Shown here one piece after another: positions 4,330 to 26,829 of a stretch of 64,000 nt of DNA (positions are counted from its first letter, which is position 1; each line of letters begins with the position of its first letter). The notes beneath the pieces were generated by a model that was not told the DNA's origin, made no database searches, and was given only the letters and a program-made list of their open reading frames with translations. A program made the position numbers and the translations under genes. The DNA comes from Ancylobacter moscoviensis (GTDB taxonomy: Bacteria > Pseudomonadota > Alphaproteobacteria > Rhizobiales > Xanthobacteraceae): contig NZ_VMBP01000002.1 in assembly GCF_007559435.1 (NCBI RefSeq), forward strand, positions 1 to 64,000. Reading direction: 5' to 3'.

Positions 4330-4333
4330 GCTG

Positions 4334-5533: not shown

Positions 5534-5569
5534 TCACCTGCTGACCCACCGTCACGAACCCGTCATCTG

Positions 5570-5581
5570 CTGTATATACAG
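5570..5581. promoter_or_regulatory. Palindromic operator 1 (phnM-phnD divergent region)
   Basis: CTGTATATACAG is a perfect 12-base palindrome. It fits the HutC-subfamily GntR consensus GT-n-TA-n-AC. It lies 37 bases before the phnM start on one side and 46 bases before phnD on the other, so a repressor here could affect both arms. Confidence 0.7.
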
Positions 5582-5601
5582 ATAATCAAACAACGATATT
5601 C

Positions 5602-5613
5602 CTGTCTATACAG
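5602..5613. promoter_or_regulatory. Palindromic operator 2 (phnM-phnD divergent region)
   Basis: CTGTCTATACAG matches operator 1 at 11 of 12 positions and keeps GT-n-TA-n-AC. Its centre is 32 bases (about three helical turns) from that of operator 1, so both sites face the same side of the helix. It overlaps the region just upstream of the phnD ribosome binding site (AGAGG at 5616-5620). Confidence 0.7.
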
Positions 5614-5626
5614 CAAGAGGCAGAAA

Positions 5627-6484: not shown

Positions 6485-6498
6485 TCTTCCCGCCGGAT

Positions 6499-6525
6499 GC
6501 CGGATGGGCCGCGCGCCCCTCCGGC
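6499..6525 (+). other. Stem-loop between phnD and phnC
   Basis: Outer arms GCCGGA (6499-6504) and TCCGGC (6520-6525) and inner GGGC/GCCC form a stem with a small loop, without a U run. It lies in the 103-base gap after the binding-protein gene and could protect the phnD transcript 3' end or lower read-through into phnCE. Confidence 0.5.
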
Positions 6526-6587
6526 GTTCCGGTCGCGCATGGCCGTTTCCCGGCAGTTCACCAGATCGTCGACCGATGGAGGCCGCC

Positions 6588-7427
6588 ATGGAGCATGTTC
6601 CGGTGCAGAAGACCGACGGGCCTCGTCCGGGCGGTCCTCTGATCGCGCCGCTGGCAAGGGCGCCGGCACCGTCTTCCGGTCCCCCGATCATCCGCACGCA
6701 CGGTCTCGCCAAGACCTATCCCAACGGACAGGCGGTGTTTGCCGGCATCGAGCTCGATATCCGCGCAAACCAGCGCGTCGCGCTCATCGGTTCCAACGGG
6801 GCGGGCAAGTCCACCCTGCTGAAGTGCCTCATCGGCCTTCTTCCCTCCACCGGCGGCGAGATCGCGACGCTGGGCGAGCGCTTCACCGCCATGCCCGGCC
6901 CCGCGCAGATGAAACGCCTGCGCCGGCAGATCGGTTTCGTGTTCCAGAACCACGGGCTCGTCGGGCGCCAGTCCGTGCTGACCAATGTGGTGCAGGGCAA
7001 GCTCGGCCTGCCGGGCAGCTGGCGCGCCTGGCATCAGGGCATCGCCCCGCGTGCATGGCGCGAGGAGGCGATGCAGGTGCTCGCCGAGGTGCGTCTCGCC
7101 GACAAGGCGGGCGCCCGGGCCGATCAGCTGTCCGGCGGTCAGGCCCAGCGCGTCGCCATTGCCCGCGCCCTGATACGCCGTCCGAGGCTCCTGATCGCCG
7201 ACGAGCCGGCGGCGAGCCTCGATCCGGCGGTCGGGCGCGACATCATGCGCATCTTCTCCGATCTCGCCGGCGAGCACGGCATCACCCTCGTCTACACGAC
7301 GCACGACATGCAGCACGCGCTCGACTACTCCGACCGCATCGTGGCGCTGAAGGGCGGCAAGGTGCATTTCGACCGGCCCACCGCGCGGGTCTCCCGCCGC
7401 GAGATGGATGGCGTGTTCCATGGCTAG
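6588..7427 (+). CDS. phnC: Phosphonate ABC transporter ATP-binding protein (279 aa)
   Basis: ATPase of the phosphonate importer. Walker A is GSNGAGKST, the Q loop lies in IGFVFQNHGLV, the ABC signature is LSGGQAQRVAIARAL, Walker B is LLIADEPAASLDP and the switch histidine is in VYTTHDMQHAL. The ATG at 6588 is chosen because GGAGG sits five bases upstream; starts at 6504 or 6576 are open but have poorer sites. The chosen form keeps a proline-rich leader of about 30 residues before the domain, longer than in most PhnC proteins. It overlaps the start of phnE. Confidence 0.9.
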   Translation: MEHVPVQKTDGPRPGGPLIAPLARAPAPSSGPPIIRTHGLAKTYPNGQAVFAGIELDIRANQRVALIGSNGAGKSTLLKCLIGLLPSTGGEIATLGERFTAMPGPAQMKRLRRQIGFVFQNHGLVGRQSVLTNVVQGKLGLPGSWRAWHQGIAPRAWREEAMQVLAEVRLADKAGARADQLSGGQAQRVAIARALIRRPRLLIADEPAASLDPAVGRDIMRIFSDLAGEHGITLVYTTHDMQHALDYSDRIVALKGGKVHFDRPTARVSRREMDGVFHG

Positions 7428-8226
7428 CACGACCTCGACGGCGTCTCTCCCCTCGCGCCTGCCCCCGATCTCGCCGCTGTCCTTCACGCTGATCGTCGCC
7501 GTCGGCGCGCTGTTCCTCGCCTCGATGGGGCAGGTGGCGCCGTCGCCTGAAAAGCTGGCGGCCGGCGCGCCGCGCATGGCCGAGCTGGTCGGGCGCATGT
7601 TGCCGCCCAATTCCGATCCGGCGTTCCTCCAGCGCATGGGCTGGCGCATCCTGGAGACGCTGCAGATCGCGCTCGTCGGCACGGTGTTCGGCGTCATCGC
7701 CAGCCTGCCGATGGGCTGGCTGGCGGCGCGCGGCATCTCGCCCCTCGGCGCGCTGCGTCATCTCCCGCGCGCGCTGATCTCGCTGTTCCGTACCGTGCCG
7801 GACCTCGTCTGGGCGCTGCTGTTCGTATCGACGCTGGGCCTCGGGGCGGTCGCCGGCACCATGACCATCGTCGTCGACACGATCGGCTTCTGCGGCCGCT
7901 TCTTCGCAGAGGCGATGGAGGAGGCGGACAAGAAGCCTCAGGAAGCGCTCCACGCCATCGGCGCCAACCGGGTGACGGTGCTGTGCGGGGCGGTCCTGCC
8001 GGACGTCATGCCGACGCTGATCAACTCCTCGCTCTTCGCGCTGGAAAAGGCGGTGCGCTCCTCCGTGGTGCTCGGCCTCGTCGGCGCGGGCGGAATTGGT
8101 CAGGAGCTGAAGGTCGCGTTCGACCTGTTCCAGTACAGGAACGCCTCCGCGATCATCCTGGCGATCTTCGTCATCGTGCTGGCGATGGAGTTCCTGACCG
8201 ACCGTCTGCGCGCGCGCTTCCAGTAG
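7408..8226 (+). CDS. phnE: Phosphonate ABC transporter permease (272 aa)
   Basis: Inner-membrane channel subunit with about six helices. The cytoplasmic coupling loop EALHAIGANRVTVLCGAVLPDVMP is the EAA motif that docks on PhnC, and the C-terminal block VVLGLVGAGGIGQEL is typical of PhnE. The start may be 7408 or 7420; both overlap the end of phnC (stop 7425-7427) and neither has a strong ribosome binding site, consistent with translational coupling. A single phnE is present, so the channel would be a homodimer. It ends the operon and is followed by a stem-loop. Confidence 0.9.
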   Translation: MACSMASTTSTASLPSRLPPISPLSFTLIVAVGALFLASMGQVAPSPEKLAAGAPRMAELVGRMLPPNSDPAFLQRMGWRILETLQIALVGTVFGVIASLPMGWLAARGISPLGALRHLPRALISLFRTVPDLVWALLFVSTLGLGAVAGTMTIVVDTIGFCGRFFAEAMEEADKKPQEALHAIGANRVTVLCGAVLPDVMPTLINSSLFALEKAVRSSVVLGLVGAGGIGQELKVAFDLFQYRNASAIILAIFVIVLAMEFLTDRLRARFQ

Positions 8227-11166: not shown

Positions 11167-12366
<1,200 letters not shown>

Positions 12367-12368
12367 CG

Positions 12369-13748
12369 TCAGGTCTCGTCGCAAAGGGGAAGAAGGCAGG
12401 TCACATCGGCCAGCGTCTCGATCCGGCCGAGCCGGTCGAGCAGGCTGGCGGCGTCGGCCGGTGTCGTCACGCTTGCGGCGCAGTCGAGGAACTTGGCCGC
12501 CAGCGCCTGGTCGGAGAGCGGGTCGGCCGCCGCGCCGCGCGGAAAGGCCCGGAAGCCCTCGAGCCGCCGTCCGTCGCGCAGAAGCAGCGTGACATGGGCG
12601 CCCTCGGGCGCGGCGCGCCGGGCCGCCTCGTCCCAGCGCTCGCCGGTCTGCATGCTGATCCGTGGCAGCAGCCGGGCGAGAGCCGGATCGGCGAGCACGG
12701 CGTCGTCGAGATGGCGCAGCCGCACCTCGCCGAACACCAGCGTCGCGGCGATGGCGAAGGGCATGCTGAATTGCGCCTGCTGGCGGTTCGCCGGCAGATC
12801 GTAGATGAGATTGGCGATCACCACCGGCGGCACGTCGCAGGCGATGTGCACGATCTCGCCCGGCTCGACGTCATGGGTCCGCGCCAGCTCGTCCACGACG
12901 TCGACCGCCGCGTGCGAGGAGAGGCACACCGGGATGCGCTTGACGTCGATGCCGGGCTCGAGAAGCCGCCACGTCCGGCCCAGCGTCGCGAAGGCTTCGT
13001 CCTCCCGCACGCCGCCGTTGAACAGGCCGGCGAAGCCGCGCGGATGCTCGACCGCGTCGAGCGGTCCGCTCACGCCGGCCCGCGCCATGAACGCCGCGAT
13101 CACGCCCGCCTCGGCGGCGCGGCCGGCGAGCACCGGCTTGGCGTCGGTGCCGAAGGCGGCCTTGGCGCCCCCGGTGCCGGCCAGCGCGATGCCGATCGCC
13201 GCCCCGGTCGCCCGGGCGTCGAGCCCGTAGAGGCGGGCCGCGGCGACGCTGGCGCCCACCGGCCCGAGCACCGCCGTGGTCCACCAGCCGCGCTCGTACA
13301 GCGCCATGGTCATGCCGGCGCCGAGGGCGTACTCCGCCTCCGAGCCGGCGACGATCGCCTCGATCAACGCGGCCCCCGACGCGCCGACGCTCTGCGCCAC
13401 GGCGAGCGCGGCCGGCACGATCACCGCCGAACCGTGCACGACCCCGGAATAGCAGTTGTCGTCGAAATCGAGCGCATGGGCGGCGGTGGCGTTGGCCGCC
13501 GCGGCGCCGGGGGCGGCGAGACGCGCGGCGGAGCCGAGAAGCTGCGCCTCGCCCACCGCGCCGATGTCGGCCAGCACGCCGCGCGCGCGGCGGGCGACCG
13601 GGGTCGCCGACCCCGCCAGGGCGACGCCGAGCGTGTCGATCAGGCAGTTGCGGGCGACCCGCTGCACCGGCGCCGGCACATCGCCGGGGCGCAGGCCGCA
13701 AGCCCAGCGGGCCATGCGCTCGATGGCGGTCGCCGGTCGCTCCTCCAT
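12369..13748 (-). CDS. MmgE/PrpD family protein (459 aa)
   Basis: The family includes 2-methylcitrate dehydratase, cis-aconitate decarboxylase and other dehydratases or isomerases of multi-carboxylic acids. The sequence shows RVARNCLIDTLGVALAG, then AAHALDFDDNCYSG near residues 90-105 (active-site DFDD), a VKRIPVCLSSHAAVD segment where PrpD has VKPYPSCRYTH, and RQQAQFSMPFAIA. Full length. GGAGG precedes the ATG, which lies six bases after the HutU stop. The divergence from PrpD in the substrate segment argues against 2-methylcitrate; no prpB or prpC is nearby. A role on the HutU product is inferred. Confidence 0.85.
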   Translation of the reverse strand: MEERPATAIERMARWACGLRPGDVPAPVQRVARNCLIDTLGVALAGSATPVARRARGVLADIGAVGEAQLLGSAARLAAPGAAAANATAAHALDFDDNCYSGVVHGSAVIVPAALAVAQSVGASGAALIEAIVAGSEAEYALGAGMTMALYERGWWTTAVLGPVGASVAAARLYGLDARATGAAIGIALAGTGGAKAAFGTDAKPVLAGRAAEAGVIAAFMARAGVSGPLDAVEHPRGFAGLFNGGVREDEAFATLGRTWRLLEPGIDVKRIPVCLSSHAAVDVVDELARTHDVEPGEIVHIACDVPPVVIANLIYDLPANRQQAQFSMPFAIAATLVFGEVRLRHLDDAVLADPALARLLPRISMQTGERWDEAARRAAPEGAHVTLLLRDGRRLEGFRAFPRGAAADPLSDQALAAKFLDCAASVTTPADAASLLDRLGRIETLADVTCLLPLCDET

Positions 13749-13754
13749 GGGCGG

Positions 13755-15446
13755 CTAGCCTCCGGCGGCCGGCGGCGCGCCGAAGGTCCGCAGCCCTTCG
13801 CGCTCGACGGTCGCCAGCGCCTCGTCATAGCCGGCATCGGCATGGCGGAACATCGCCACCGAGGAATCGTTGGCCAGCACCCGGCTGAGGCGGCGCGCGG
13901 CGTCCTCGCTGCCGTCCGCCACCACCGCGAAGCCGGCATGCTGCGAATAGCCGATGCCGACACCGCCGCCATTGTGCAGCGACACCCAGGTCGCCCCGCT
14001 GGCGCAGGAGACCAGCGCGTTGAGCATCGGCCAGTCGGCCACCGCGTCGGAACCGTCCAGCATGCCCTCGCTCTCGCGGTTGGGGCTGGCCACCGAGCCG
14101 GAGCTGATATGGTCGCGGGTGACGATGACGGGGGCGCCCACCTCGCCGGAGGCGACCATCTGGTTAAGCGCCAGCCCCGCCGCGACGCGGTCGCGCAGGC
14201 CCATCCAGTAGCTGCGCGAGGGCAGTCCCTGGAAGCGGATGCGCGTCTCCGCCATGTCGATCCAGCGCGCGAAGCTGGGGTCCTCGACGATGCCCTTCAG
14301 CTTGCGGCTGGAGACGAGGATGTCCTGCGGGTCGCCGGAAAGCGCGATCCAGCGGAACTGCGTCCGGCCCCGGCAGAATTGCGGGCGGACATAGGCCGAG
14401 ATGAAGCCGGGAAAGGCGAAGGCCTCTTCCACCCCGACATCGCGCGCCATCTGGCGGATGTTGTTGCCATAGTCGAACACCGGAATGCCGCGCGCCCGGA
14501 ATTCCAGCATCGCGCGCACCTGCCGCGCCATGGTCTGCTTGGCGGCGGCGATGACGGCCTCCGGCTCGCTATCGCGCCGGCGCTCCCACTCGGCGATCGT
14601 CCAGCCGGCGGGAATGTAGCCGTAGAGCGGGTCGTGCGCCGCCGTCTGGTCGGTCACGAGATCGGGGAGCGTGCCGCGCGCGAGGATCTCCTCATAGACC
14701 TCGGCAGCATTGCCCAGCAGGCCGATCGAGACCGCCTTGCCGGTGCGCTTCGCCTCGGCCAGCAGGGCGAGGGCCTCGTCGAGGCTCGCGGCGCGGCGGT
14801 CGAGATAGCCGCCCTCCATGCGCCGCTCGATGCGCTCGGCGCGCATGTCGACCGCCAGCACCGAGCAGCCGGCCATGACGCCCGCCAGCGGCTGCGCGCC
14901 GCCCATGCCGCCGAGCCCGGCGGTGAGCAGCCAGCGGCCGGAAAGATCGCCGCCATAATGCTGGCGGCCGGCTTCCACGAAGGTCTCGAAGGTGCCGCCG
15001 ATGATCCCCTGGCTGCCGATATAGGTCCAAGAGCCGGCCGTCATCTGGCCGTACATCATGAGCCCGCGACGCTCCAGCTCGTCGAAGACCTCCTGCGTCG
15101 CCCAGCGGCCGACGAGGTTCGAATTGGCGATCAGCACACGCGGCGCATCGGCATGGGTGCGGATGACGCCGACCGGCTTGCCGGACTGCACCAGCAGCGT
15201 CTCGTCATTGTCCATCGCCTTCAGCGTGGCGACGATGCGGTCGAAGGATTCCCAGTTGCGCGCCGCCCGTCCGCGCCCGCCATAGACGACGAGGTCCTCG
15301 GGACGCTCGGCGACCTCGGGGTCGAGATTGTTCATCAGCATGCGCAGCGGGCCTTCCGTCTGCCAGCTTCGCGCGTTCAGGGTGGAACCGCGCGGGGCGC
15401 GCACGACGCGGCTGTTCTTGGAAATGCTGATGTCGGAGGTGGTCAC
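13755..15446 (-). CDS. Urocanase (HutU) family protein, non-canonical paralogue (563 aa)
   Basis: Urocanase hydrates urocanate to imidazolonepropionate with a tightly bound NAD+ as electrophile. The family is clear: [19 protein letters not shown] at the N-terminus, [19 protein letters not shown] for NAD+ binding, then [22 protein letters not shown] and [22 protein letters not shown]. At the position of the essential cysteine in bacterial urocanase (GLPARICWxG) this protein reads [10 protein letters not shown], with Tyr at about residue 413. The GTG at 15446 is chosen from GGGGAG upstream and normal family length. It is followed closely by MmgE/PrpD and a CoA-transferase and preceded by a LysR gene; hutH, hutI and hutG are absent. 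Either a urocanase on an unusual route or an enzyme for a urocanate analogue. Confidence 0.82.
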
Positions 15447-15533
15447 GCAAGGCTCCCCGATGAGGGGCCACCCGAAGGCGGCCGGCAGGCTTACCGGCGG
15501 GACCATAGGGGCGACAGAGAATGAATTGTACTA

Positions 15534-15562: not shown

Positions 15563-16483
15563 CTAATTCAGATCGGGATCGGGCGTGCGGTCTCGGAAAT
15601 AGTCCTTGGCCGTCTCGACGAAGGCTTCGGCCGCCCGCGTCATGGGCGAGCGGGCGGAGGAGCCGATGATCACGCGCTGCGGCGGCACGATCTCGACCAG
15701 CGGCCGGCACACCAGCGGCAACCCGTCATGCGAGCGGTCGCCATAGGGGCGCGTCACCAGCACGCTGTTGCCCAGCCCGTGCGCGACCATGCCCCGCAGG
15801 GTCGGCAGCGAGGTGCAGCGGATCAGTTGCTCGGGCATCACGTCGGCGATGCGGAACAGCGACAGGAAATAATCGCGGCTGTGGGGAAGATCGATGAGCA
15901 CGAAGGGCTCGACGGCGAGGTCGCGCAGCGAGACGCGGTCCTGCGCCCCCAGCGGGTGGCCCTCCGGCAGCAGCGCGTAGGGGCGGTGGGCGCCGAGCGG
16001 GATGCGGACCATCTCGCCCATCGTGTCGATCTCGTAGAGCAGCGCGATCTCGATGGCGCCGTCGTCGAGGTCGCGATGAAGCTGGTCGAGCGTCGCCTCG
16101 CGCATGCGCACCCGCACCTTGGGATGGGCGGCGCCGAAGGCGCGCATCAGGCCGGGCGCATAGGCGGGGGCGAGGGTCGAGAAGACGCCGATCTCCAGAT
16201 CGCCGATCAGCTCGTCGTCCTCGCCGGTTCCCATCACCGCCTGGCCATGCGCCAGCAGATGGCGCACCTCGGCGAGCTTGCGTCGGCCGAACGGGGTGAG
16301 GTCCACACCCTGCGCATGGCGGCGGACGAACAGCTTCTGGCCGAAGGCCTGTTCGAGCTGGCCGATGGCGACGGACACCGCCGGCTGGGAGACGTGCAGC
16401 GTCTCGGCAGCGCGCAGCGTGCTTCCGGCCTCGGCGGTGGCGACGAAGTAGGAGAGCTGTCGCCAGGAGATGTGGAGGGCCAT
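15563..16483 (-). CDS. LysR-family transcriptional regulator (306 aa)
   Basis: An N-terminal winged helix (SWRQLSYFVATAEAGSTLRA and LHVSQPAVSVAIGQLEQAFG) is joined to a LysR effector domain (GDLEIGVFSTLAPAYAPGLM, later MVAHGLGNSVLVTRPYG). It resembles the CynR/OxyR-like group with an N-terminal extension of about seven residues. It lies upstream of the urocanase paralogue on the same strand and is divergent from an acyl-CoA dehydrogenase, so it could control both. The intergenic DNA on either side is AT-rich for this genome and carries short inverted repeats. The effector is unknown. Confidence 0.9.
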   Translation of the reverse strand: MALHISWRQLSYFVATAEAGSTLRAAETLHVSQPAVSVAIGQLEQAFGQKLFVRRHAQGVDLTPFGRRKLAEVRHLLAHGQAVMGTGEDDELIGDLEIGVFSTLAPAYAPGLMRAFGAAHPKVRVRMREATLDQLHRDLDDGAIEIALLYEIDTMGEMVRIPLGAHRPYALLPEGHPLGAQDRVSLRDLAVEPFVLIDLPHSRDYFLSLFRIADVMPEQLIRCTSLPTLRGMVAHGLGNSVLVTRPYGDRSHDGLPLVCRPLVEIVPPQRVIIGSSARSPMTRAAEAFVETAKDYFRDRTPDPDLN

Positions 16484-16512: not shown

Positions 16513-16580
16513 CAGCGAATATTTTTATTATTCCGAACAGGGCGTCAAGCTTGGATCAGTATTCCTGTTCCGAGCGTGCC

Positions 16581-17717
16581 ATGGACCCTTTCTGCTCCGC
16601 CGATGACCTCGCCATCGCCGACGCCATCGAGCGTTTCGCGGCGGAACGGATCGCCCCGCGTGCCCACGCCATCGATGCCGGGGCGCTGTTCGCCGGCGAG
16701 CATGTTCCCGCGCTCGCCGAGATCGGCCTCATGGGCATGAACCTGCCGGAGCAATGGGGCGGGGCCGGCGTATCGGCGGTCGGGCTCTATCTCGCGGTGG
16801 AAGCGCTCGCCGGAGCCTGTGCTTCCACCACTTCGATGCTCACCGCCCACTTCCTGGCGACCGATTCCATATTGATCGGCGGCGATGACGGGCAGCGCGC
16901 CCGCTGGCTGCCGGAGGCCGCCGCCGGCACGGCCCTCGGCGCCTTCGCGCTGACCGAGCCCCGCGCCGGCTCCAACCCCGCGGACATGCGCACCCGCGCC
17001 ACGCGGGAGGGGGAAAATTACCGGCTCGACGGCACCAAGCACTTCATCTCCAACGCGGCGCATGCTCGCTTTCTGGTCGTCTTCGCGCTGACCGATCCCG
17101 GAGCGGGCGCGCGCGGCATCAGCGCCTTCGTGGTCGACCGGGAAATGCCGGGCCTGAGCGTCAGCTCGCCGGAGCCCACCATGGGCCTGCGCGGCGGCCA
17201 TGTGTTCGAAGTCACCTTCGACGGCTGCCTCGTTCCCGCCGGGCGGCGGCTGGGGGAGGAGGGCACGGGGTTCCGCACCGCCATGAAGGTGCTGGACAAT
17301 GGCCGGGTGGAAGTCGCCGCCACCTCCACCGGCATCGCCGCCGCCGCGTTGAAGGCCGCGCGGGAGTGGGTGCAGCAGCGCGAGGTCGACGGCGCGCCGA
17401 TCGCCCGGTTCCAGGGGCTCCAGTGGATGCTGGCGGATATGGCGACCGAGCTCGACGCGGCACGCCTTCTCGGGCTGCGGGCCGCCCATCTGCGCGCCAG
17501 GCACGGGCGCTTCTCGCAGGAGGCCGCCATGGCCAAGCTGTTCACGGCGGAGGCGGCGGGACGCATCACCGACGCGGCCCTGCAGATCCACGGGGGCTAT
17601 GGCTACTCGCGCGACCTGCCGCTGGAGCGGCTGGTGCGCGACGCGCGGATCATGCGGATCTACGAGGGCTCCTCGGAAATCCAGCGCAACATCATCGCCC
17701 GCACGCTGCTCAAGTGA
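16581..17717 (+). CDS. Acyl-CoA dehydrogenase (378 aa)
   Basis: FAD enzyme that makes the alpha,beta double bond in an acyl-CoA. Family signatures are present: GAFALTEPRAGSNPADMRT (FAD-binding), DGTKHFISNAAHA, and the C-terminal IHGGYGYSRDLPLERLVRDARIMRIYEGSSEIQRN, where the glutamate of YEGSSE is the catalytic base. The ATG at 16581 is chosen; a TTG at 16551 in the same frame with AGGG upstream is possible and would add ten residues. It is divergent from the LysR gene and faces the HutU/PrpD/CoA-transferase set, so it may act on the CoA ester made there. Confidence 0.92.
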   Translation: MDPFCSADDLAIADAIERFAAERIAPRAHAIDAGALFAGEHVPALAEIGLMGMNLPEQWGGAGVSAVGLYLAVEALAGACASTTSMLTAHFLATDSILIGGDDGQRARWLPEAAAGTALGAFALTEPRAGSNPADMRTRATREGENYRLDGTKHFISNAAHARFLVVFALTDPGAGARGISAFVVDREMPGLSVSSPEPTMGLRGGHVFEVTFDGCLVPAGRRLGEEGTGFRTAMKVLDNGRVEVAATSTGIAAAALKAAREWVQQREVDGAPIARFQGLQWMLADMATELDAARLLGLRAAHLRARHGRFSQEAAMAKLFTAEAAGRITDAALQIHGGYGYSRDLPLERLVRDARIMRIYEGSSEIQRNIIARTLLK

Positions 17718-17835
17718 GGTCCCGGTGATGCAGCTCTCCGCCACTGTGCCATCGCCGGGACCGGGAAGCTGCTCACCGCAAAGGCAGAAGGCCGCTCAAT
17801 TCTGGTTCATTTTGGATCAAACAGTTCATAATCTA

Positions 17836-17858
17836 TGCAAATTGAAACATTCGTTGCA
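17836..17858. promoter_or_regulatory. Candidate operator upstream of the RpiR gene
   Basis: TGCAA (17836-17840) and TTGCA (17854-17858) are inverted around an AT-rich 13-base centre, about 30 bases before the RpiR start. RpiR proteins often bind AT-rich dyads in their own promoters. The site falls in the 172-base gap after the acyl-CoA dehydrogenase gene, the only visible promoter region for the eight-gene operon. Confidence 0.35.
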
Positions 17859-17889
17859 AAGCCCGTTCGGGCGTCCTAGCCTCGGCGTC

Positions 17890-18816
17890 ATGAAGCACGC
17901 TGACTTCGTGACGAAGGTGAAGCACCAGTTCGACGCGCTGCCCGGCCAGATCCGGATCGCCGCCGAGTTCGTGCTCGATCATCCCCAGGATGTGGCGCTC
18001 CTCTCCATGCGCGAGCAGGCACGCCGTGCCGGCGTGCCGCCCGCCACCATGACACGCTTCGCGCAGCATCTTGGGCTGGCCGGCTATGACGAGGTGCGGG
18101 CCATTCATGCGGCCGCCATCCGCGAGGCGCCGGAGGCGTATAGCGGGCGCGCGCAAAGCCTCGTCTCCCGCCACCGCGAGGTCGGCGTCGCCGGCGTTGC
18201 ATCGGAAATGACGGCGCGCCTGTCCGGTCATCTCGCCGATATCGGCGTGCCGGCCTCGGTGAGGCGGCTGGTCGACGCCGCGCAGCAGATGGTGCAGGCG
18301 CGGCACATCTACTGCCTCGGCCACCGCTCGTCCTTCCCGGCGGCGTTCCAGTTCAATTATCTGCTGTCCTTCTTCGACACCCGCTCGACCCTGCTCGACG
18401 CGACCGGCGGCATCGGTCATCCGGGGATGCTGAATGCCGGGGAGGGGGATGTGCTGCTCGCCATCTGCTACTCCCCCGCCGCGCGCCATGTGGTCGAGAC
18501 GGTCGCGTTCGCCCGCCGCCAGGGCGTCCACGTCATCGCCATCACCGACAGCGAGACGAACCCCATCGGGCGGCTGGCGAACCTCACCCTGCTGGCGTCG
18601 AGCCAGTCGCCGTCCTTCTTCGATTCCATCACGCCGGCGGTGGCCGTGTGCGAGACGCTGGTCGCGCTGATCGCCGGCCTGCATCCGGGCGATGTGCCCT
18701 CCGCCGTCGCGCGCTCGGAGGAGAAGCTCTGGGATCTCGGCGTCTGGTGGCGACCGGACGATCCGCTCCCGCCCTCGCATTCCGAAAAGACCAGACCGAA
18801 AGGGAGGGCCGGGTGA
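17890..18816 (+). CDS. RpiR/MurR-family transcriptional regulator (308 aa)
   Basis: An N-terminal helix-turn-helix of the RpiR type (about residues 5-80; REQARRAGVPPATMTRFAQHLGLAGYDEVR) is followed by a SIS domain (about 130-270) with RHIYCLGHRSSFPAA and DVLLAICYSPAARHVVE. SIS domains usually sense phosphosugars, but RpiR regulators also control amino-compound catabolism. The ATG at 17890 is chosen as the start of the conserved HTH; the longer frame lacks support. Its TGA overlaps the ATG of the first ureohydrolase by one base, so regulator and catabolic genes are one operon. Confidence 0.88.
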   Translation: MKHADFVTKVKHQFDALPGQIRIAAEFVLDHPQDVALLSMREQARRAGVPPATMTRFAQHLGLAGYDEVRAIHAAAIREAPEAYSGRAQSLVSRHREVGVAGVASEMTARLSGHLADIGVPASVRRLVDAAQQMVQARHIYCLGHRSSFPAAFQFNYLLSFFDTRSTLLDATGGIGHPGMLNAGEGDVLLAICYSPAARHVVETVAFARRQGVHVIAITDSETNPIGRLANLTLLASSQSPSFFDSITPAVAVCETLVALIAGLHPGDVPSAVARSEEKLWDLGVWWRPDDPLPPSHSEKTRPKGRAG

Positions 18817-19775
18817 TGGACACGCAGACACCCCGCTACAACGCCTACATGCCGTCGGCCGGCATTGCGAGCTTCCTGCGCTCGCCGATCTGCGAGGATT
18901 TCTCGAAGGTCGAGGCGGACGTCGCCATTCTCGGCATCCCCTATGATTGCGGCGTCGGCTACCGGCCCGGCACGCGCTTCGGGCCGCGCGAGATCCGCAA
19001 CCAGTCGACGCGCTACGCCTCCTGGGGCACCGGCAACGCCGCCGGCTACTGGGACGTGAACCAGAAGAAGCGCTTCCTGAGGGATGTCTCGATCGTCGAT
19101 TGCGGCGACGTCGACATCACCTATTTCGACATCGCCGCCAACATGGCGAAGATCACCGAGTCCGTCTCGGCGCTGCTGGCGCGCGGGGCGCTGCCGGTCA
19201 TCCTCGGCGGCGACCATTCGGTGACCTTCCCGAACGTGCGCGCCTTCGCCCCGCTTGGCCCGATCGACATCGTCCACATCGACGCCCACATGGATTGGCG
19301 CGACGATATCGCCGGCGTGCGCTTTACCAATGCGAGCCCGCTGCGCCGCTCGAAGGAGCTGCCCTTCGTGCGCCACATGGTGCAGCTCGGCATCCGCGAC
19401 GTGCGCACCCGCGAGAGCGACTACGCCGACGCGACCGCGCAGGGCGTGCAGATCGTCACCCGCGAGGACATCCGCGAGAGGGGCGTGGCGGCGGTGCTGG
19501 GCGCGATGCCGGAACTCGGCAACGTCTTCGTCACCATCGACATTGACGGCCTCGACCCCTCCATCGCGCCGGGCACCGGCTCTCCGACCGTCGACGGGCT
19601 GCTCTACCACGAGGTGCGGGCGCTGCTGCAGGGCGTGGCGGCGCGGGGCAACGTGGTCGGCTTCGATCTGGTCGAGGTGAATCCCTTCATCGACGTCGAG
19701 GGGCAGACCAGCCTCCTCGCCACCACGCTGATCCTCGAATTCCTCGGAGCGATCTTCGCGGCCCGCGGCCGCTGA
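18816..19775 (+). CDS. Ureohydrolase (agmatinase/arginase family), first copy (319 aa)
   Basis: Binuclear-metal hydrolase that removes urea (or formamide) from guanidino (or formimino) compounds. All metal-ligand motifs are intact: GGDHSVTFP, HIDAHMDWR and TIDIDGLDPSIAPGTGSP. The N-terminus GIASFLRSPICEDFSKVEADVAILGIPYD fits the agmatinase/guanidinobutyrase branch rather than arginase proper. The start overlaps the RpiR stop and has GGGAGGG upstream. A stem-loop follows before the ABC binding-protein gene. The operon pairs it with a dipeptide-type importer, a second ureohydrolase and RidA; agmatine is possible but the true substrate is open. Confidence 0.88.
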   Translation: MDTQTPRYNAYMPSAGIASFLRSPICEDFSKVEADVAILGIPYDCGVGYRPGTRFGPREIRNQSTRYASWGTGNAAGYWDVNQKKRFLRDVSIVDCGDVDITYFDIAANMAKITESVSALLARGALPVILGGDHSVTFPNVRAFAPLGPIDIVHIDAHMDWRDDIAGVRFTNASPLRRSKELPFVRHMVQLGIRDVRTRESDYADATAQGVQIVTREDIRERGVAAVLGAMPELGNVFVTIDIDGLDPSIAPGTGSPTVDGLLYHEVRALLQGVAARGNVVGFDLVEVNPFIDVEGQTSLLATTLILEFLGAIFAARGR

Positions 19776-19804: not shown

Positions 19805-19851
19805 CGAAATACCAAAAATATCAAGAACATAAAAACCAGATGGAGTTGGGA

Positions 19852-21351
19852 ATGAAGAAGCGAATTATCGGTGCCCTTGGGGCTGCGGCCGTCAGCCTTG
19901 CCGCGCTGATGGCCCCTGCCATGGCGGACGGCAATCTGCGTGTCGCCATCCCCGCCAACCTCAACACGCTCGACGCCGCGAAGACCAAGCTCGGCGAAGA
20001 GTACATCATGAACTTCCTCGTCTTCAGCGGGCTGACCGAGGTCGACGGCAAGGGCGGCGTGAAGCCCGACCTCGCCGAAAGCTGGGCCAAGAGCGACGAC
20101 CAGAAGACCTGGACGTTCAAGCTGCGTCCGGGCGTGAAGTTCCACGACGGCCGGCTTCTGGAAGCCGAGGACGTCAAGGCCACCATCCAGCGCATCCAGG
20201 ACAAGGCCACCGGCTCCACCGCGCGGGTGAATTTCGACATCGTCGAGAGCATCGAGACGCCGGACAAGCAGACCGTCGTCTTCAAGCTGAAGATTCCCTA
20301 TTCCGGCTTCGCCGAGCTGTTCGGCGACCGCCAGGTCCGCATCCTGCCGCGCGACAAGTTCGATACCGTCGCCACCAGCCCCGTCGGCACCGGCCCCTTC
20401 ATCTTCAAGTCCTTCACGCCGGGCGACCGCGTGGAGCTGGTGAAGAACCCCGACTACTTCGTCGCCGGCGAGCCGAAGCTCGATGCCATCACCCTCCGCA
20501 TCATGCCGGAGAGCGCCGCGCAGATCGCTGCCCTGGAGACCGGGGACATCGATCTCGTCTGGAACCTGCCGCTCGAATCCATCGATCAGATGAAGAAGAA
20601 CCCGGACGTCGTCGTCGACTCGACCTCGACCTCGACCTGGGACGGGCTGATCATGAACGCGGCGCAGAAGCCCTTCGACGACAAGCGGGTGCGCAAGGCG
20701 ATCCTGATGACCCTCGACAAGCCGGCCCTTGTCGAGGTCGCGCTCTACGGTCAGGGCACGCCGACCCACACGATGATCCCGCCGTCGCATCCCTACTTCA
20801 ACAAGGACCTGCCGATCTCGACCCCGGACATCGAGGGCGCGAAGAAGCTGCTGGCCGAAGCGGGCTATCCGAACGGCTTCGAGGCGACCCTCTACGTGCC
20901 GGTGGGCCGCCCCACGCGCGAGCGCCTCGGCATCGCCGCGAAGGAGCTGCTCGCGCCGATCGGCATCAAGGTCGATCTGCAGCGCGTGCCGTGGGACAAG
21001 TTCGTGAAGGAGATCGAGGGCAAGGCCGCGTTCTACACGGACGGCTTCTTCAGCCGCCCGACCATCGACACCTCGATCTATCCCTTCTTCCACTCGACGG
21101 GTTCGTGGAACACCCAGCTCTGGAACTACAAGAACCCGGAGATCGACAAGGTTCTGGACGACGCGCGCGCCGCCAAGACCGAGGAAGAACGGGCGGCGCT
21201 CTACAACAAGTTCCAGGCTCTCGCCGAGGACGATCCGGCCGGCGCGATCCCCTACGTGCTCAATCACGTCAATGCCTACCGCAAGAACGTGAAGGGCTTC
21301 TCGTCCAGCCCGATGATGTGGCTCGATCTGCGCGAGACCACCATCCAGTGA
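19852..21351 (+). CDS. Dipeptide/nickel-type ABC transporter substrate-binding protein (499 aa)
   Basis: Cluster C binding protein (SBP_bac_5). A signal peptide covers about residues 1-26 (MKKRIIG, hydrophobic core, AMADG). Typical features follow: TLDAAKTKLGEEYIMNFLVFSGLTEVD, PDLAESWAKSDDQKTWTFKLRPGVKFHDG and VELVKNPDYF. The ATG at 19852 is preferred over 19840 because GGAG lies at the right distance and the signal peptide begins there. The ligand is not fixed by the family: members bind peptides, opines, guanidino compounds and others. Stem-loops lie on both sides of the gene, a layout often linked to higher binding-protein expression. Confidence 0.88.
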   Translation: MKKRIIGALGAAAVSLAALMAPAMADGNLRVAIPANLNTLDAAKTKLGEEYIMNFLVFSGLTEVDGKGGVKPDLAESWAKSDDQKTWTFKLRPGVKFHDGRLLEAEDVKATIQRIQDKATGSTARVNFDIVESIETPDKQTVVFKLKIPYSGFAELFGDRQVRILPRDKFDTVATSPVGTGPFIFKSFTPGDRVELVKNPDYFVAGEPKLDAITLRIMPESAAQIAALETGDIDLVWNLPLESIDQMKKNPDVVVDSTSTSTWDGLIMNAAQKPFDDKRVRKAILMTLDKPALVEVALYGQGTPTHTMIPPSHPYFNKDLPISTPDIEGAKKLLAEAGYPNGFEATLYVPVGRPTRERLGIAAKELLAPIGIKVDLQRVPWDKFVKEIEGKAAFYTDGFFSRPTIDTSIYPFFHSTGSWNTQLWNYKNPEIDKVLDDARAAKTEEERAALYNKFQALAEDDPAGAIPYVLNHVNAYRKNVKGFSSSPMMWLDLRETTIQ

Positions 21352-21477: not shown

Positions 21478-22434
21478 ATGGCCATCTACGTGATCAAACG
21501 GTTGCTCGGCATCGTCGCGATCCTCGCGGTCATGTCCGTGTTGGTGTTCGCCATCACCCAGGTGATGCCGGGCAACGTCGCGAACATCCTCGCCGGGCAG
21601 TTCGCCGACGACGCCACCATCAAGGCCATCGAGCACAAGCTCGGCCTCGATGCGCCGGCCTATGTGCAGTACTGGCGCTGGGCTGGCGGCGTGCTGAGCG
21701 GCAATCTCGGCAATTCCATCATCATGGAGCGTCCGGTCGGCCCGCTTATCTGGGAGGCGTTCAAGTCGTCGGCGCTGCTCGCCATCCTCGCCTTCATCAT
21801 GGTCGCCGTGTTCGGCATCCTGCTCGGCGTCATCGCCGCCATCCGGCAGAACAGGTTCGCCGATCACGCGGTGTCGCTGTTCTCCTATGTCGGCGTGTCG
21901 GTGCCGGAGTTCTTCTGGGCCATCGTCGCCATCATCGTCTTCGCGCGCTATCTCAACTGGCTGCCGAGCGGCGGCGCGGGGAATATCTCCCAGGGGTTCT
22001 GGGTCTGGGCTTCGCACCTCGTGCTGCCCGTGCTCACGCTGACCCTGACCCTCATCGCCCATGTGTCGCGGCTCACGCGCTCCAGCATGATCGAGACGCT
22101 GCGCTCCAACTATGTGCGCAACGCCCGCGCCAAGGGATTGCCGGAGAAGGTGATCATCCGCCGGCACGCTCTGCGCAACGCGCTGCTGCCCACCATCACC
22201 GTGCTGGCCATCGATGTCGGCTGGCTGCTGGGCAACATCGTGGTGGTGGAGGCGGTGTTCTCCTATCCCGGCATCGGGCGCCTGCTGCTGTTCGCCATCG
22301 AGCGGCACGACCTGCCGCTCATCCAGGCCGGCATCCTGCTGATCGCGGCGGTCTACTGCTTCGCGAACCTGATCGCCGATCTCCTCTATGCCTATTTCAA
22401 CCCGAAGATCCGCTATGGCCATGCCGAAAGCTGA
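21478..22434 (+). CDS. ABC transporter permease, DppB type (318 aa)
   Basis: First membrane subunit of the dipeptide-type importer. The N-terminus MAIYVIKRLLGIVAILAVMSVLVFAI is the standard first helix of DppB/OppB, and the coupling loop YVRNARAKGLPEKVIIRRHALRNALLP is the EAA-like motif that contacts the ATPase. About six helices. The C-terminus overlaps the next permease gene by 20 bases. Confidence 0.92.
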   Translation: MAIYVIKRLLGIVAILAVMSVLVFAITQVMPGNVANILAGQFADDATIKAIEHKLGLDAPAYVQYWRWAGGVLSGNLGNSIIMERPVGPLIWEAFKSSALLAILAFIMVAVFGILLGVIAAIRQNRFADHAVSLFSYVGVSVPEFFWAIVAIIVFARYLNWLPSGGAGNISQGFWVWASHLVLPVLTLTLTLIAHVSRLTRSSMIETLRSNYVRNARAKGLPEKVIIRRHALRNALLPTITVLAIDVGWLLGNIVVVEAVFSYPGIGRLLLFAIERHDLPLIQAGILLIAAVYCFANLIADLLYAYFNPKIRYGHAES

Positions 22435-23296
22435 AACCGCGCAAAGCGCGGCCGCACGCCCGCGACGGCTATGGCCTCGTGGTCTCAATGGAAAGCTCGT
22501 GATCGGCAGCGCCGTTCTGCTGCTGCTGATCGTCGTCGCCGTCGCGGCACCCTGGATCGTGCCCTACCGCTTCGACGAGATGAGCATCCTCAATCGTCTC
22601 AAGCCCCCGAGCCTGCGCAACTGGCTCGGCACCGACGAGTTCGGGCGCGACGTCTTCAGCCGGACACTGATCGGCGCGCGGCTGTCCCTGCTGATGGGCT
22701 TCGCCGCCACCGCCGTCAGCCTCGCCATCGGCGTGCCGCTGGGCCTGTGGGCCGGCTACCGGCGCGGCCGGGTGGACGAGATCGTCATGCGCTCCACGGA
22801 CGTGCTGCTGTCCTTCCCGCCCATCATGCTCGGCCTGCTGCTGCTCGCCGTCACCCCGCCCTCGCTGTGGAAGATGATCGTGGCGGTGGGCATCGTCTAT
22901 GTGCCGAGCACGGTGCGCCTGACGCGCAGCGTCACGCTCGATCTCGCGGGTGAGGAGTTCGTGCAGGCGGCGCGCGCCCGTGGCGAGCGCACCTCCTACA
23001 TTCTCCACGCGGAGATCCTGCCCAATGCCTGGCCGCCGATCATGGTGGAGGCGAGCCTGCGCGTGACCTTCGCCATACTGCTCGGCGCCGCGCTGTCCTT
23101 CATCGGCCTCGGCGCCCAGCCGCCCAGCTCGGACTGGGGTCTCATGATCGCCGAAGCCCGCCCCCTCATCGACCGCGCGCCCTGGGTGGCCATCGCGCCC
23201 GGCATCGCCATGGGCATCACGGTCATTGCCGTGAACCTGCTCGGCGACGGCCTGCGCGAGGCGCTCGACCCGCGCATGCACCGGAAAGGTGGCTGA
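22415..23296 (+). CDS. ABC transporter permease, DppC type (293 aa)
   Basis: Second membrane subunit. The conserved periplasmic segment NWLGTDEFGRDVFSRTLIGARLSL and the coupling loop EEFVQAARARGERTSYILHAEILPN mark the DppC/OppC family. The start is ATG 22415 or 22421; both overlap the DppB-type gene, and the longer frame to 22388 is unlikely. Its TGA overlaps the ATG of the ATPase by one base. Confidence 0.9.
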   Translation: MAMPKAETAQSAAARPRRLWPRGLNGKLVIGSAVLLLLIVVAVAAPWIVPYRFDEMSILNRLKPPSLRNWLGTDEFGRDVFSRTLIGARLSLLMGFAATAVSLAIGVPLGLWAGYRRGRVDEIVMRSTDVLLSFPPIMLGLLLLAVTPPSLWKMIVAVGIVYVPSTVRLTRSVTLDLAGEEFVQAARARGERTSYILHAEILPNAWPPIMVEASLRVTFAILLGAALSFIGLGAQPPSSDWGLMIAEARPLIDRAPWVAIAPGIAMGITVIAVNLLGDGLREALDPRMHRKGG

Positions 23297-25380
23297 TGAC
23301 CGCTCCCCTCCTGACCCTCGACAATCTGACCCTGGCCTACCAGACGGGCCGCGGCACGCTGCGGGCGCTGAATTCCGTCAGTCTCGGCGTCGGCGCGGGC
23401 GAGACGCTGGCGGTCGTGGGGGAGTCGGGCTCCGGCAAGAGCTCGATCGCCTTCGCCACCATGGGCCTGCTCGGCCCCGAGGCCGCGATCAGCGGATCGA
23501 TCCGTTTCGACGGCACCGAGCTTGTCGGTCTCGACGAGGCGTCGCGTCGCGACCTGCGCGGCCGGTCGATCGGCATGGTGTTCCAGGATCCGTTCACCTC
23601 GCTCAACCCGAGCCTGCGCGTTGGCGAGCAGGTGGCCGAGCCGCTGGTCTATCATCAGGGCCTGACGCGTCCGGCCGCTCTGGAGCGGGCCATCGCGGCG
23701 CTGGGCGAGGTGGGACTGCCGAGCCCGCGTGAACTGGCCTCGGCCTATCCGCACCAGCTCTCGGGCGGCATGCAGCAGCGCGTGCTGATCGCCAGCGCCA
23801 TCGTCTGCGATCCGCGCATCCTCATTCTGGACGAGCCCACCACCGCGCTCGACGTGACGGTCGAGGCGCAGATACTCGACCTGCTCGACCATCTGCGGCG
23901 CAGCCGTGGGCTGGGCATGCTGTTCATCACCCACAATCTGGGCGTGGTGAACCGCATCGCCGACCGGGTCTGCGTGCTCTACGCCGGGCAGGTCGTCGAG
24001 ATCGGGGCCAAGGAGGCGGTGCTCGGCCGCTCCTCCCATCCCTACACCAAGGGGCTGCTCGCCTCGCTGCCGCAGCTTTCCGCGCAGGGGCGCAGCCAGC
24101 GCATCGCGCCGATCCCCGGCCGCTTTCCGGATCTGGTCGATCCGCCGCCGGGCTGCATCTTCGCCCCCCGCTGTCCGTTCGCCGAGGAAAAGTGCGCCGC
24201 CCCGCAGGCTTTGACCGTGGACGACACCGGCAGCGGCGCCCGCTGCTGGAAGAGCGGCCGGCTGCCCGGCTGGCCGCAGGCCGACACGGCCCCCCGCGTG
24301 GCGCAGCCGGCCGGGGCAGGGGAAGAGCCGCTGCTGCGCGCCGAGCATCTGGTCAAGCGCTACCGGCGCGGGCGCATCGGCGGCGGTATCGCGTGGACGC
24401 GGAAGTTCGGCGTCCTGCCGTGGCCCGAGGTGCGCGCCGAGATCGTCAACGCGGTGGACGACATCTCCATCGATGTCCGGCGCGGCGAGACGCTCGGGCT
24501 GGTCGGCGAGAGCGGCAGCGGCAAGTCCACGCTGGGCCGCACGGTGCTGCGCCTCATCGATCCCTCGGCCGGGCGCCTGCTGTTCGAGGGCGTCGATGTC
24601 GCGGCGGCGCCGGCGGACGATCTGCAGGACCTGCGCAAGCGGGCGCAGATCGTGTTCCAGAACCCGGATTCCTCGCTCAATCCGCGCCGCAAGGTCGGCG
24701 ACGCCATCGCCCGTGCCGTCGCGCTGCAGACCAACGTGCCCCGCGAAGGGCGCCGCGCCCATGTCGAGGACCTGCTCGACCGGGTCGGGCTGCCGCGCTC
24801 CTATTATGATCGCTACCCGCACCAGCTCAGCGGCGGCGAGAAGCAGCGGGTCGGCATCGCACGCGCGCTGGCGACGGGGCCGGACTTCATCGTCTGCGAC
24901 GAGCCGGTCTCCGCGCTCGACGTCTCCGTGCAGGCCACGGTTCTCAACCTGCTGGACGAGCTGCGCGACGACCTGAAGCTCTCCTACCTGTTCATCTCGC
25001 ACGACCTGTCGGTCGTCGCCTACATCGCCGACCGCATCGCGGTGATGTATTCCGGCCGCATCTGCGAGATCGGCGACGCGAAGGACGTGCTGTCGCCGCC
25101 CTATCACCCCTACACGCAGGCCCTGCTCTCCGCCGTGCCGCTCGCTACCCCGGGAGCGGAGAAGAGCGAGCGTATCCGGCTGCGCGGCGACCGCCCTCCA
25201 TCGGAGGGCGAGCGTTCGGGCTGCGTGTTCCACACCCGCTGCCCGCGCGCGCTCGGCGACATCTGCGCTACCACGATGCCACCGTTGCAAGAGCCCCGCC
25301 CCGGCCACCGCATCGCCTGCCATCTGCCGCTCGACGAGCTGATGCGCGCGCCTTCCGCGCTGCCGGCCGCCGCGGAATGA
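23296..25380 (+). CDS. Fused DppD-DppF ABC transporter ATPase (694 aa)
   Basis: Two complete nucleotide-binding domains in one chain. Domain 1 (about residues 5-320) has Walker [10 protein letters not shown], signature [15 protein letters not shown] and Walker [13 protein letters not shown]. Domain 2 (about 350-690) has [24 protein letters not shown] and [12 protein letters not shown]. Each ends in the oligopeptide C-terminal cysteine cluster ([14 protein letters not shown] and [15 protein letters not shown]) that may hold an iron-sulfur cluster. Most dipeptide systems use two separate ATPases; here the heterodimer is built in, as in GsiA. The linker around residues 328-345 is Ala/Gly-rich. 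Confidence 0.92.
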
Positions 25381-25428: not shown

Positions 25429-26388
25429 ATGAGTGCCCGCCTGACTACCCCTCCTAAGCACGGCCATAAGAGCCTCCTCTATTCCGAGGTCGTGGACGAC
25501 CTCGATAACCTCAAGGCCGACATCGCCGTGCTCGGCATTCCCTATGGCTCCGCCTATACGATCGAGGAAGTCAGCAACGATCAGTCCAATGCGCCGACGG
25601 CGATCCGCCAGGCCTCGGACCGCGCCGTGCGCGCCCTGGAGCGCTACGACTTCGACATTGGCGGCCCGCTGCTGATGAACAAGCCGATCCGCATGGTGGA
25701 TTGCGGCGACGTCATCAACGATCCGCGCGATCTCGGCATGAGCTACCGCAACGCCGAGGCCGCCGTGCGCAAGATCCTGAAGGCTGGCGCCCTGCCGATC
25801 ATCCTCGGCGGCGACCATGGCATTCCGATCCCGGTGCTGCGCGCCTATGACGATCAGGAGGGGCCGATCACCCTCGTCCACATCGACGCGCATCTCGATT
25901 GGCGCAACGAGGTCAATGGCGTGACGGACGGCTATTCGAGCCCGATCCGCCGCATCTCCGAAATGGACCATGTGAAGGACATCTTCCAGATCGGCATTCG
26001 CGCCCAGGGCAGTGCCCGGCAGGAAGAGGTCGACGTCGCCTATGCCTATGGCGCTAACATCATCACCGCCTACGAGCTGCACGATGTCGGCATGGACGCC
26101 GTTCTGGAGCGCATCCCCGCCGGTGGGCGCTACTACATCACCATCGATGCGGACGGCATGGATCCGTCCGTGATGCCCGCCGTGAACGGCCCCGCGCTCG
26201 GCGGCGTGACCTATCACCAGGCGCGCAAGCTGATCCACGGCCTCGTCAACAAGGGGCGTGTGGTGGGCATGGATCTCGTCGAGATCACGCCCGCCAAGGA
26301 TGTGAACCGCATCTCGTCGATCGCGGCCTGCCGCCTCTTCGTCAACCTGATCGGCGCGACCATCAAGGCCGGCTATTTCGACCGCTGA
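25429..26388 (+). CDS. Ureohydrolase (agmatinase-like), second copy (319 aa)
   Basis: Same fold as the first copy but clearly divergent. Metal motifs GGDHGIPIP, HIDAHLDWR and TIDADGMDPS are kept, but the last block reads DPSVMPAVNGPALGG in place of the usual DPxxAPG, and the N-terminal substrate-side loop (YTIEEVSNDQSNAPTAIRQASDR) differs from classical agmatinase. It may therefore hydrolyse another guanidino or formimino compound, or work as a partner subunit. It lies 48 bases after the ATPase, with GAGGATGTG upstream of the ATG, and 18 bases before ridA. Activity unknown. Confidence 0.85.
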   Translation: MSARLTTPPKHGHKSLLYSEVVDDLDNLKADIAVLGIPYGSAYTIEEVSNDQSNAPTAIRQASDRAVRALERYDFDIGGPLLMNKPIRMVDCGDVINDPRDLGMSYRNAEAAVRKILKAGALPIILGGDHGIPIPVLRAYDDQEGPITLVHIDAHLDWRNEVNGVTDGYSSPIRRISEMDHVKDIFQIGIRAQGSARQEEVDVAYAYGANIITAYELHDVGMDAVLERIPAGGRYYITIDADGMDPSVMPAVNGPALGGVTYHQARKLIHGLVNKGRVVGMDLVEITPAKDVNRISSIAACRLFVNLIGATIKAGYFDR

Positions 26389-26406: not shown

Positions 26407-26829
26407 ATGACCACCCATACCCGCATTCGTCCCTTCAACACGAAGGAGACCTATCCCGAGCAGAAGCTCGACAACGATCTCTGCCAGGCGGTCGTCGCGC
26501 GCGGAACCATGGTGTTCCTGCGCGGCCAGATCGCCCAGGACCTCGACACGCGTGAAAGCCTGCATGTCGGGGATCCCGGCAAACAGGCCGAAAAGGCGAT
26601 GTCGAACATCAAGATGCTCATGGAGGAAGCCGGTGGCGACATGAGCCATATCTGTCGCATCGTCGTCTATCTCACGGATATCCGCTACCGCGAGGCGGTT
26701 TATTGCGAGATGGGCAAGTGGTTTAAGGGCGTGTTCCCGGTATCGACCGGCCTCGTCGTTCCCGCGCTTGCGCGACCGGAATGGGTCGTCGAGATCGAGG
26801 CGACCGCCGTCATCCCCGACGCGTCCTGA
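26407..26829 (+). CDS. RidA/YjgF/Rid family protein (140 aa)
   Basis: Rid proteins hydrolyse reactive enamine or imine intermediates or act as catabolic accessory subunits. The Rid pattern is present: LCQAVVARGTMVFLRGQIAQD, NIKMLMEEAGGDMSHICRIVVYLTDI and the C-terminal LARPEWVVEIEATAVIPD with the conserved E. The canonical arginine that binds the carboxylate in RidA is expected near the VVPALARPE segment and may be the Arg there. It is the last gene of the RpiR operon, directly after the second ureohydrolase. Its position suggests that a pathway intermediate is an imine; this is inference. Confidence 0.88.
   Translation: MTTHTRIRPFNTKETYPEQKLDNDLCQAVVARGTMVFLRGQIAQDLDTRESLHVGDPGKQAEKAMSNIKMLMEEAGGDMSHICRIVVYLTDIRYREAVYCEMGKWFKGVFPVSTGLVVPALARPEWVVEIEATAVIPDAS

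Follow-up and report, generated by a model that had tools for sequence, protein, structure and literature searches.

A urocanase paralogue of Ancylobacter moscoviensis with tyrosine at the cysteine 410 position, probably recruited to an imidazolepropionate-type catabolic cluster

The window analysed here, a stretch of 64,000 nucleotides of the Ancylobacter moscoviensis genome, encodes a paralogue of the hydratase HutU (urocanase) that we call UroY. Its gene, uroY, lies on the minus strand (13755..15446) and is read from a GTG start at 15446 to a stop at 13755, giving a full-length protein of 563 amino acids; an in-frame ATG at 15506, upstream of the GTG, is a possible alternative start. The assignment draws on the open reading frame, on domain and profile scans and on the fixed divergent residues described below. 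The Pfam Urocanase_N, Rossmann and C domains are all complete, and UroY aligns nearly end to end with 7jfz and with the chain of 1uwl, which we take to be the Pseudomonas putida urocanase, sharing 62% identity with the latter. The highest-scoring model is the TIGR01228 hutU profile (846 bits against a cut-off of 375), and the original prediction of a clear HutU-family member with intact sequence blocks is thus borne out. This cut-off is a loose one, passed as well by all ten thiourocanate-type proteins scanned (667-710 bits), and UroY scores between those proteins and true HutU: three UroY copies (from the window and from genomes G162 and G136) reach 834-848 bits, about 100 bits under the 932-960 bits of three true HutU proteins that include the one of the same genome and that of a tree neighbour, G356. 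A structure prediction of UroY from 12 sequences gave a mean pLDDT of 54.5, too poor for use.

Two further genes accompany uroY on the minus strand, all three preceded by a LysR regulator gene (15563..16483): one for an MmgE/PrpD family enzyme (12369..13748), 6 bases from uroY, and one for a CaiB-type family III CoA transferase (11167..12366), 2 bases from prpD. Divergent from lysR, on the plus strand, stands the gene of an acyl-CoA dehydrogenase (16551..17717) whose YEGSSE motif keeps the glutamate that is presumably the catalytic residue. The domain scan identified these four families. The plus strand continues with an RpiR/SIS regulator (17890..18816, its start set at an internal ATG of a frame scanned as 17599-18816), ureohydrolase 1 of the arginase/agmatinase superfamily (18816..19775), the SBP_bac_5 solute-binding protein of a peptide-type ABC importer (19840..21351), ABC permeases 1 (21478..22434) and 2 (22388..23296, start approximate), a double ABC ATPase (23296..25380), ureohydrolase 2 (25429..26388) and a RidA family protein (26407..26829). 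The permeases and the ATPase were assigned by reading, context and an annotated homologue. Comparison of the five UroY loci found in this work shows prpD adjoining uroY in all of them, and lysR, the dehydrogenase gene, the solute-binding protein with its ABC importer and ureohydrolase 2 are likewise present in all five. The CoA transferase and the RpiR regulator occur in four, ureohydrolase 1 in three and RidA in two (G000 and G162). The missing CoA transferase is that of G136, where no caiB was found in about 59 kb around uroY; the transferase and dehydrogenase genes therefore occur together with a urocanase-family gene in the window and at three of the four other UroY loci. Beside the cluster, positions 3553-8226 hold phosphonate-type genes (GntR/PhnF-, PhnM-, PhnD-, PhnC- and PhnE-like, by reading only).

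The claim that a tyrosine replaces the essential cysteine also stood. Within a ten-residue motif of UroY, Tyr413 (codon 14208..14210, minus strand, computed from 15446) aligns with Cys410, a number that we take to be in P. putida numbering and a residue that we assume to be essential in urocanase. We aligned 138 urocanase sequences from the loci collected over at least 450 columns, adding 1uwl and dropping one duplicate (L106, the same gene of genome G149 as L147). Column 410 holds Cys in 122 sequences, Ala in six, Gly in five and Tyr in five, and every row of this alignment without Cys is either thiourocanate-type or UroY. The tyrosine recurs in five genes, those of the window, of three congeners and of a metagenome-assembled genome (MAG) labelled Betaproteobacteria, so it is not a sequencing slip. 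Outside the alignment, a Thioclava plasmid hutU that is frame-split in its record (L155, 15154-16847) reads GLPARIMWIG, with Met at the Cys410 position.

The NCBIfam models were run on ten of the 11 thiourocanate-type proteins, L137 being left out for its in-frame stop, and in these ten residue 410 tracks the NCBIfam class: the six Ala proteins pass the thiourocanate cut-off and four Gly proteins the S-methyl-thiourocanate one (L133-L143). Judged from the sequences, the bulkier the substituent at C2, the smaller is residue 410, with Cys for urocanate, a pattern that may reflect the room left at ring C2. If it does, the larger Tyr of UroY speaks against a 2-substituted ring.

These comparisons bear directly on the suggestion, made in the original prediction, of a thio-imidazole or ergothioneine route. 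A thiourocanate or S-methyl-thiourocanate hydratase would belong to the same superfamily and residue 410 is replaced there too, but UroY scores 669 bits where the thiourocanate model NF058530 requires 930, and 675 where the S-methyl-thiourocanate model NF058531 requires 880. The G162 and G136 copies are also far below both cut-offs, one or other of which is passed by all ten thiourocanate-type relatives scanned. UroY keeps 14 of the 20 columns always altered in thiourocanate-type proteins relative to HutU (one of the 14 is a gap in the MAG copy); Q130, S135, W168 and H500 are kept by UroY and altered in all 11 of those proteins. The remaining columns are P346, C410 and V504, changed in all five UroY, and I137, V438 and G440, changed in the four congeneric copies only. 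Conversely, all 11 thiourocanate-type proteins keep the HutU residue at nine of the 16 positions changed throughout UroY. With Tyr rather than Ala or Gly at position 410 and a separate clade in the tree, UroY is extremely improbable as an enzyme of the ergothioneine route, and we disfavour that suggestion.

How far UroY has moved from urocanase was assessed at the 194 columns that are invariant in 122 HutU sequences. The UroY clade carries 16 fixed changes there (A28G, D121E, Q146G, V345I, P346S, G358T, P359Q, D376S, L389F, I409S, C410Y, L444I, D445S, T456S, V504A and G528A), whereas a single HutU compared with the rest has 0-3 (median 0). C410Y is counted partly by construction, the groups having been split by that motif; the other 15 changes are independent of it. 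Eleven of the 16 fall within residues 340-460, a stretch with 54 of the 194 such columns (p=4.5e-4 by Fisher's test, a descriptive value since the range was picked once the list was known). A maximum-likelihood tree was built from 64 of the 138 rows (5 UroY, 11 thiourocanate-type proteins, P. putida, 7 chosen and 40 random sequences). The five UroY form one clade with 100/100 support and a stem of 0.70, placed inside the HutU group and adjoining the Cys-bearing proteins of G356 and G335, and the 11 thiourocanate-type proteins form a separate clade, also at 100/100; the bootstrap had not settled (correlation 0.958) and the tool issued a long-branch warning. In the same tree, the HutU proteins of the window's family-mates group with Bradyrhizobium.

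Selection was estimated from the four congeneric copies out of the five, whose six pairs give dN/dS values of 0.12-0.16, like the 0.13 of one hutU pair. UroY seems to descend from urocanase and to have diverged while staying functional, not to be a copy in decay. A dead or purely structural paralogue would accord with the loss of a cysteine assumed to be essential, yet we hold it to be very improbable in view of these dN/dS values and of specific changes common to all five copies. A single stop turned up, at residue 552 of the 555-codon stretch of G155, and probably marks the natural end of that gene; the MAG copy is broken only by undetermined bases, some 43 aligned residues being missing. 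Recruitment to a different role is what the evidence indicates: 16 changes are fixed in the clade, its stem is long, purifying selection acts on it, and the neighbourhood of CoA transferase, acyl-CoA dehydrogenase and ureohydrolase genes is conserved.

UroY is rare: it was found in five genomes among those searched. The searches covered several sampled draws of genomes, with some overlap between them. In the genus, four of 30 genomes, that of the window included, carry orthologues (88-91% in this search). A family draw of 149 genomes yielded UroY in the window's genome and in G136 only, fragments in G035 aside. Those fragments are four pieces of urocanase on contigs C304, C4, C7 and C288, two of them N-terminal and 74-75% identical to UroY. 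In a class draw of 385 genomes (E<=1e-254) the window's genome had the sole UroY, the matches in G335, G356 and G490 being 67% identical to it with Cys at 410, and in a phylum draw of 398 genomes (E<=1e-256) the same genome gave the sole match. The MAG, palsa_1003 (G149; loci L106 and L126), was found among the 80 urocanase loci listed; its UroY is 74-75% identical, reads GLPARSYWMG and is the sole match among 399 genomes of the MAG's own order. A search of plasmids with UroY returned no orthologue among the best 30 of 705 records, the best identity listed being 67.4%.

The original prediction reasoned from the changed residue and an absence of hutH, hutI and hutG to a changed substrate. Near uroY the absence is real, no hut gene being found among the neighbouring genes scanned; genome-wide it is not. 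A PF01175 search of the genome gave two urocanases, one on the window's contig (C6) and one on contig C9, where a stretch (L115) carries hutF, hutI, hutH, hutG, a normal hutU, hutC and a histidine-type ABC binding protein. Because this hut operon is complete, the argument from missing hut genes falls. Each of the five UroY genomes has one hutH-family gene. In G162 some 25 kb separate uroY from hutU, and the remaining three congeneric genomes have the two genes far apart or on separate contigs. A tree placing UroY inside HutU and a complete hut operon elsewhere are, literally, the two findings that the original prediction had named as telling against itself. Its conclusion of a substrate other than urocanate nevertheless has support, on grounds different from those first offered: the fixed changes, the stem, the selection and the neighbourhood.

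A clue to the chemistry comes from relatives of the CoA transferase and dehydrogenase. These were sought by dehydrogenase similarity alone, in ten of the best 12 plasmid records listed (H86 and H88, further P. yeei records, being left out) and in four class-draw genomes. In all 14 loci a CaiB gene is adjacent to the dehydrogenase gene, and LysR relatives (41-46%) adjoin the pair in seven. Hut enzyme genes lie within about 10 kb in four of the 14 and near none of the other ten, chance proximity being expected in well under one of 14 if one hut locus per 4 Mb is assumed, which is an estimate. Three of the ten plasmids have the pair inside a hut operon (Thioclava, Paracoccus alcaliphilus and Pseudorhodobacter, in the last of which no hutG was found), two have beside it only a hutC-like regulator and a histidine-type binding protein (Mesorhizobium AR02 and, weakly, Sinorhizobium mexicanum), and five showed no hut gene near it (Leisingera, Tritonibacter, Pseudosulfitobacter, P. 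yeei and Gemmobacter). Among the class-draw genomes, G214 has the pair between hutH and hutU-hutG-hutI, and no hut gene was found in the 20 kb examined in each of the other three. Viewed from the urocanase side, one of the 80 loci listed, UroY locus aside, has a close pair (54 and 67%), in the order hutI-hutH-hutG-hutU-CaiB-dehydrogenase of Microvirga massiliensis; the pair of a Bradyrhizobium locus, L033, is only distantly related (41 and 40%), and six further loci have a distant dehydrogenase only (28-39%). In the MAG the pair likewise lies inside or beside hut genes.

Since relatives of the pair sit in hut operons, the simplest function that this association suggests for them there is the conversion of imidazolepropionate to urocanate by way of CoA esters. 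Pseudomonas testosteroni was reportedly described by Coote and Hassall in 1973 as using imidazolylpropionate. At three loci, an aminotransferase (HisC-like in two) and an FAD-binding oxidoreductase are encoded near the pair (L060 14653-20367, L154 14290-19146 and L159 3848-8500), two of the three also with Rieske-type oxygenase genes; imidazolelactate or N-methylated histidines might be substrates there. On a Sodalis plasmid (L181, 8457-12857), an aromatic amino acid ammonia-lyase, a CaiB relative, a 3-hydroxyacyl-CoA dehydrogenase and an enoyl-CoA hydratase are encoded in a row, and this CaiB type may activate aryl-acrylates.

The same association feeds the main rival explanation, that UroY is an ordinary urocanase isozyme acting on urocanate made from imidazolepropionate, a dedicated copy in a separate regulon whose changes are merely tolerated. 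We judge it unlikely, if the most serious of the alternatives. HutU is the best profile match of UroY, UroY is nested within HutU, and hutU stands right beside the CaiB-dehydrogenase pair in Microvirga, Paracoccus alcaliphilus, Thioclava and Pseudorhodobacter, much as UroY stands near it in the window; the Met of the frame-split Thioclava gene moreover hints that even a urocanase encoded in a hut operon may do without the cysteine. An isozyme is hard to reconcile with 16 fixed changes at otherwise invariant sites and a hutU score some 100 bits low, and its cluster should have no need of ureohydrolases in a genome that has hutF and hutG. The MAG is instructive here. One of its strands reads dehydrogenase-permeases-ABC-flavin oxidoreductase-solute-binding protein-caiB-hutU-hutI-hutF-hutG, and the divergent one lysR-uroY-prpD-ureohydrolase 2. 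The hutU beside caiB is normal (932 bits) and UroY belongs to the opposite, adjoining operon, so UroY is not simply the urocanase of that locus.

The ureohydrolases of the cluster are of the agmatinase/guanidinobutyrase type, and the plasmid neighbourhoods of ureohydrolase 2 relatives point to no single consistent substrate: aspartate ammonia-lyase and asparaginase in Aminobacter, an ArgE-type hydrolase in Ewingella and Azospirillum (where RidA is also near), a urea-carboxylase-associated protein in Chelatococcus, nothing clear in Bosea and a record without annotation in Paracoccus versutus. A guanidine-like ring such as 2-aminoimidazole acrylate, from which the ureohydrolases would release urea and glutamate, is in keeping with the enzyme type and with the Chelatococcus neighbour. 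Against it stand the bulky Tyr where enzymes of 2-substituted rings have Ala or Gly, the fact that no natural source could be named and the presence of ureohydrolase 2 relatives in clusters without UroY, and we give this reading very little credence. The module of ureohydrolase 2, RidA, PrpD and ABC importer occurs without a urocanase in Azospirillum stretches and so need not belong to imidazole chemistry; it may serve a different substrate and have been added to the imidazole genes.

The explanation that we favour, with modest confidence, is that UroY is an active ring hydratase, dependent on NAD, which was taken into a cluster for the catabolism of imidazolepropionate-type acids and probably acts there on a urocanate analogue. 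This view draws on sequence, phylogeny, selection and gene context, from which every reaction step is inferred. UroY would have arisen by duplication of a proteobacterial urocanase. The SBP_5 ABC importer would take up the compound, the CaiB-type transferase would place CoA on its propionate side chain and the acyl-CoA dehydrogenase would form the acrylyl-CoA, whereupon CaiB would pass the CoA on and release urocanate or its analogue, as the relatives of the pair in hut operons suggest. UroY would then hydrate the ring, NAD serving as the electrophile as it does in urocanase, a role consistent with the retained domains and NAD motif. Ring opening would fall to HutI in trans or to another enzyme, and one of the two ureohydrolases would cleave the resulting amidine to an amino acid; MmgE/PrpD and RidA stand outside the assigned steps. 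Most likely, the remodelled 340-460 region (I409S, C410Y, D445S, G358T, P359Q and D376S among others) fits UroY to an analogue that is not bulky at ring C2, and we consider N-methyl or side-chain variants likelier than 2-thio ones. Several points weigh against this explanation: plain hutU is the best profile match, ten of the 14 loci chosen by dehydrogenase similarity have no hut enzyme gene near the pair, a single one of the 80 urocanase loci, UroY locus aside, has a close pair, and UroY was found in five genomes only. Three further ideas, cis-urocanate, direct use of urocanyl-CoA and an epimerase role for PrpD, were put aside for lack of evidence.

A broader proposal, which we advance tentatively and rate at somewhat under an even chance, is that the cluster represents an undescribed aerobic pathway of imidazolepropionate type, that UroY defines a Tyr-type urocanase class for an analogue that is neither urocanate nor thiourocanate, and that the CaiB-dehydrogenase pair is a general imidazolepropionate-to-urocanate converter. 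Tyr at residue 410 would then mark a further class, next to those with Cys (urocanate), Ala (thiourocanate) and Gly (S-methyl-thiourocanate). The titles and opening parts of abstracts in the literature searched describe no Cys410 variant and no gene set or catabolic genes for imidazolepropionate. Gut bacteria produce imidazolepropionate, and the compound has been linked to type 2 diabetes. If true, the proposal would add a further substrate class to a small family of NAD-dependent hydratases, mark residue 410 as a position where specificity has changed repeatedly and supply candidate genes for bacterial use of imidazolepropionate.

Set against known systems, UroY resembles HutU (TIGR01228; 1uwk and 1uwl) in its full length, its three urocanase domains and a conserved 15-residue region, and differs from it by the Tyr in place of Cys410 and 15 other fixed changes at HutU-invariant positions, by its place outside the hut operon and by being the paralogue of a normal hutU. 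The thiourocanate (NF058530) and S-methyl-thiourocanate (NF058531) hydratases are, like UroY, paralogues within the urocanase superfamily with residue 410 replaced, but they have Ala or Gly there, share about 45-50% identity with UroY, form a separate clade and are changed at other positions; 7ned and 8q9u/8q9v, named urocanate hydratase in the PDB, are by our understanding such enzymes. The CaiB-dehydrogenase pairs of hut operons (Paracoccus alcaliphilus, L182 6880-9167; Thioclava, L155 12803-15134; Pseudorhodobacter, L180 8823-11152; Microvirga, L060 11654-13959) are 50-54% identical to the window's in CaiB and 55-67% in the dehydrogenase; the urocanase beside them is HutU, whereas the window has UroY with PrpD, ureohydrolases and a peptide-type importer. 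The LysR-PrpD-ABC-RidA-ureohydrolase-ArgE cluster of Azospirillum was seen in the order PrpD-SBP-permeases-ABC-RidA-ureohydrolase-(HutF)-ArgE (L150 4171-14227 and L158 11962-23338). In A. brasilense its importer, PrpD, RidA and ureohydrolase 2 are 49-73% identical to those of the window, and A. ramasamyi additionally has a HutF-type deiminase. It differs from the window's cluster in having, in the stretches examined, no urocanase, CaiB or dehydrogenase, and in possessing an ArgE-type hydrolase of its own.
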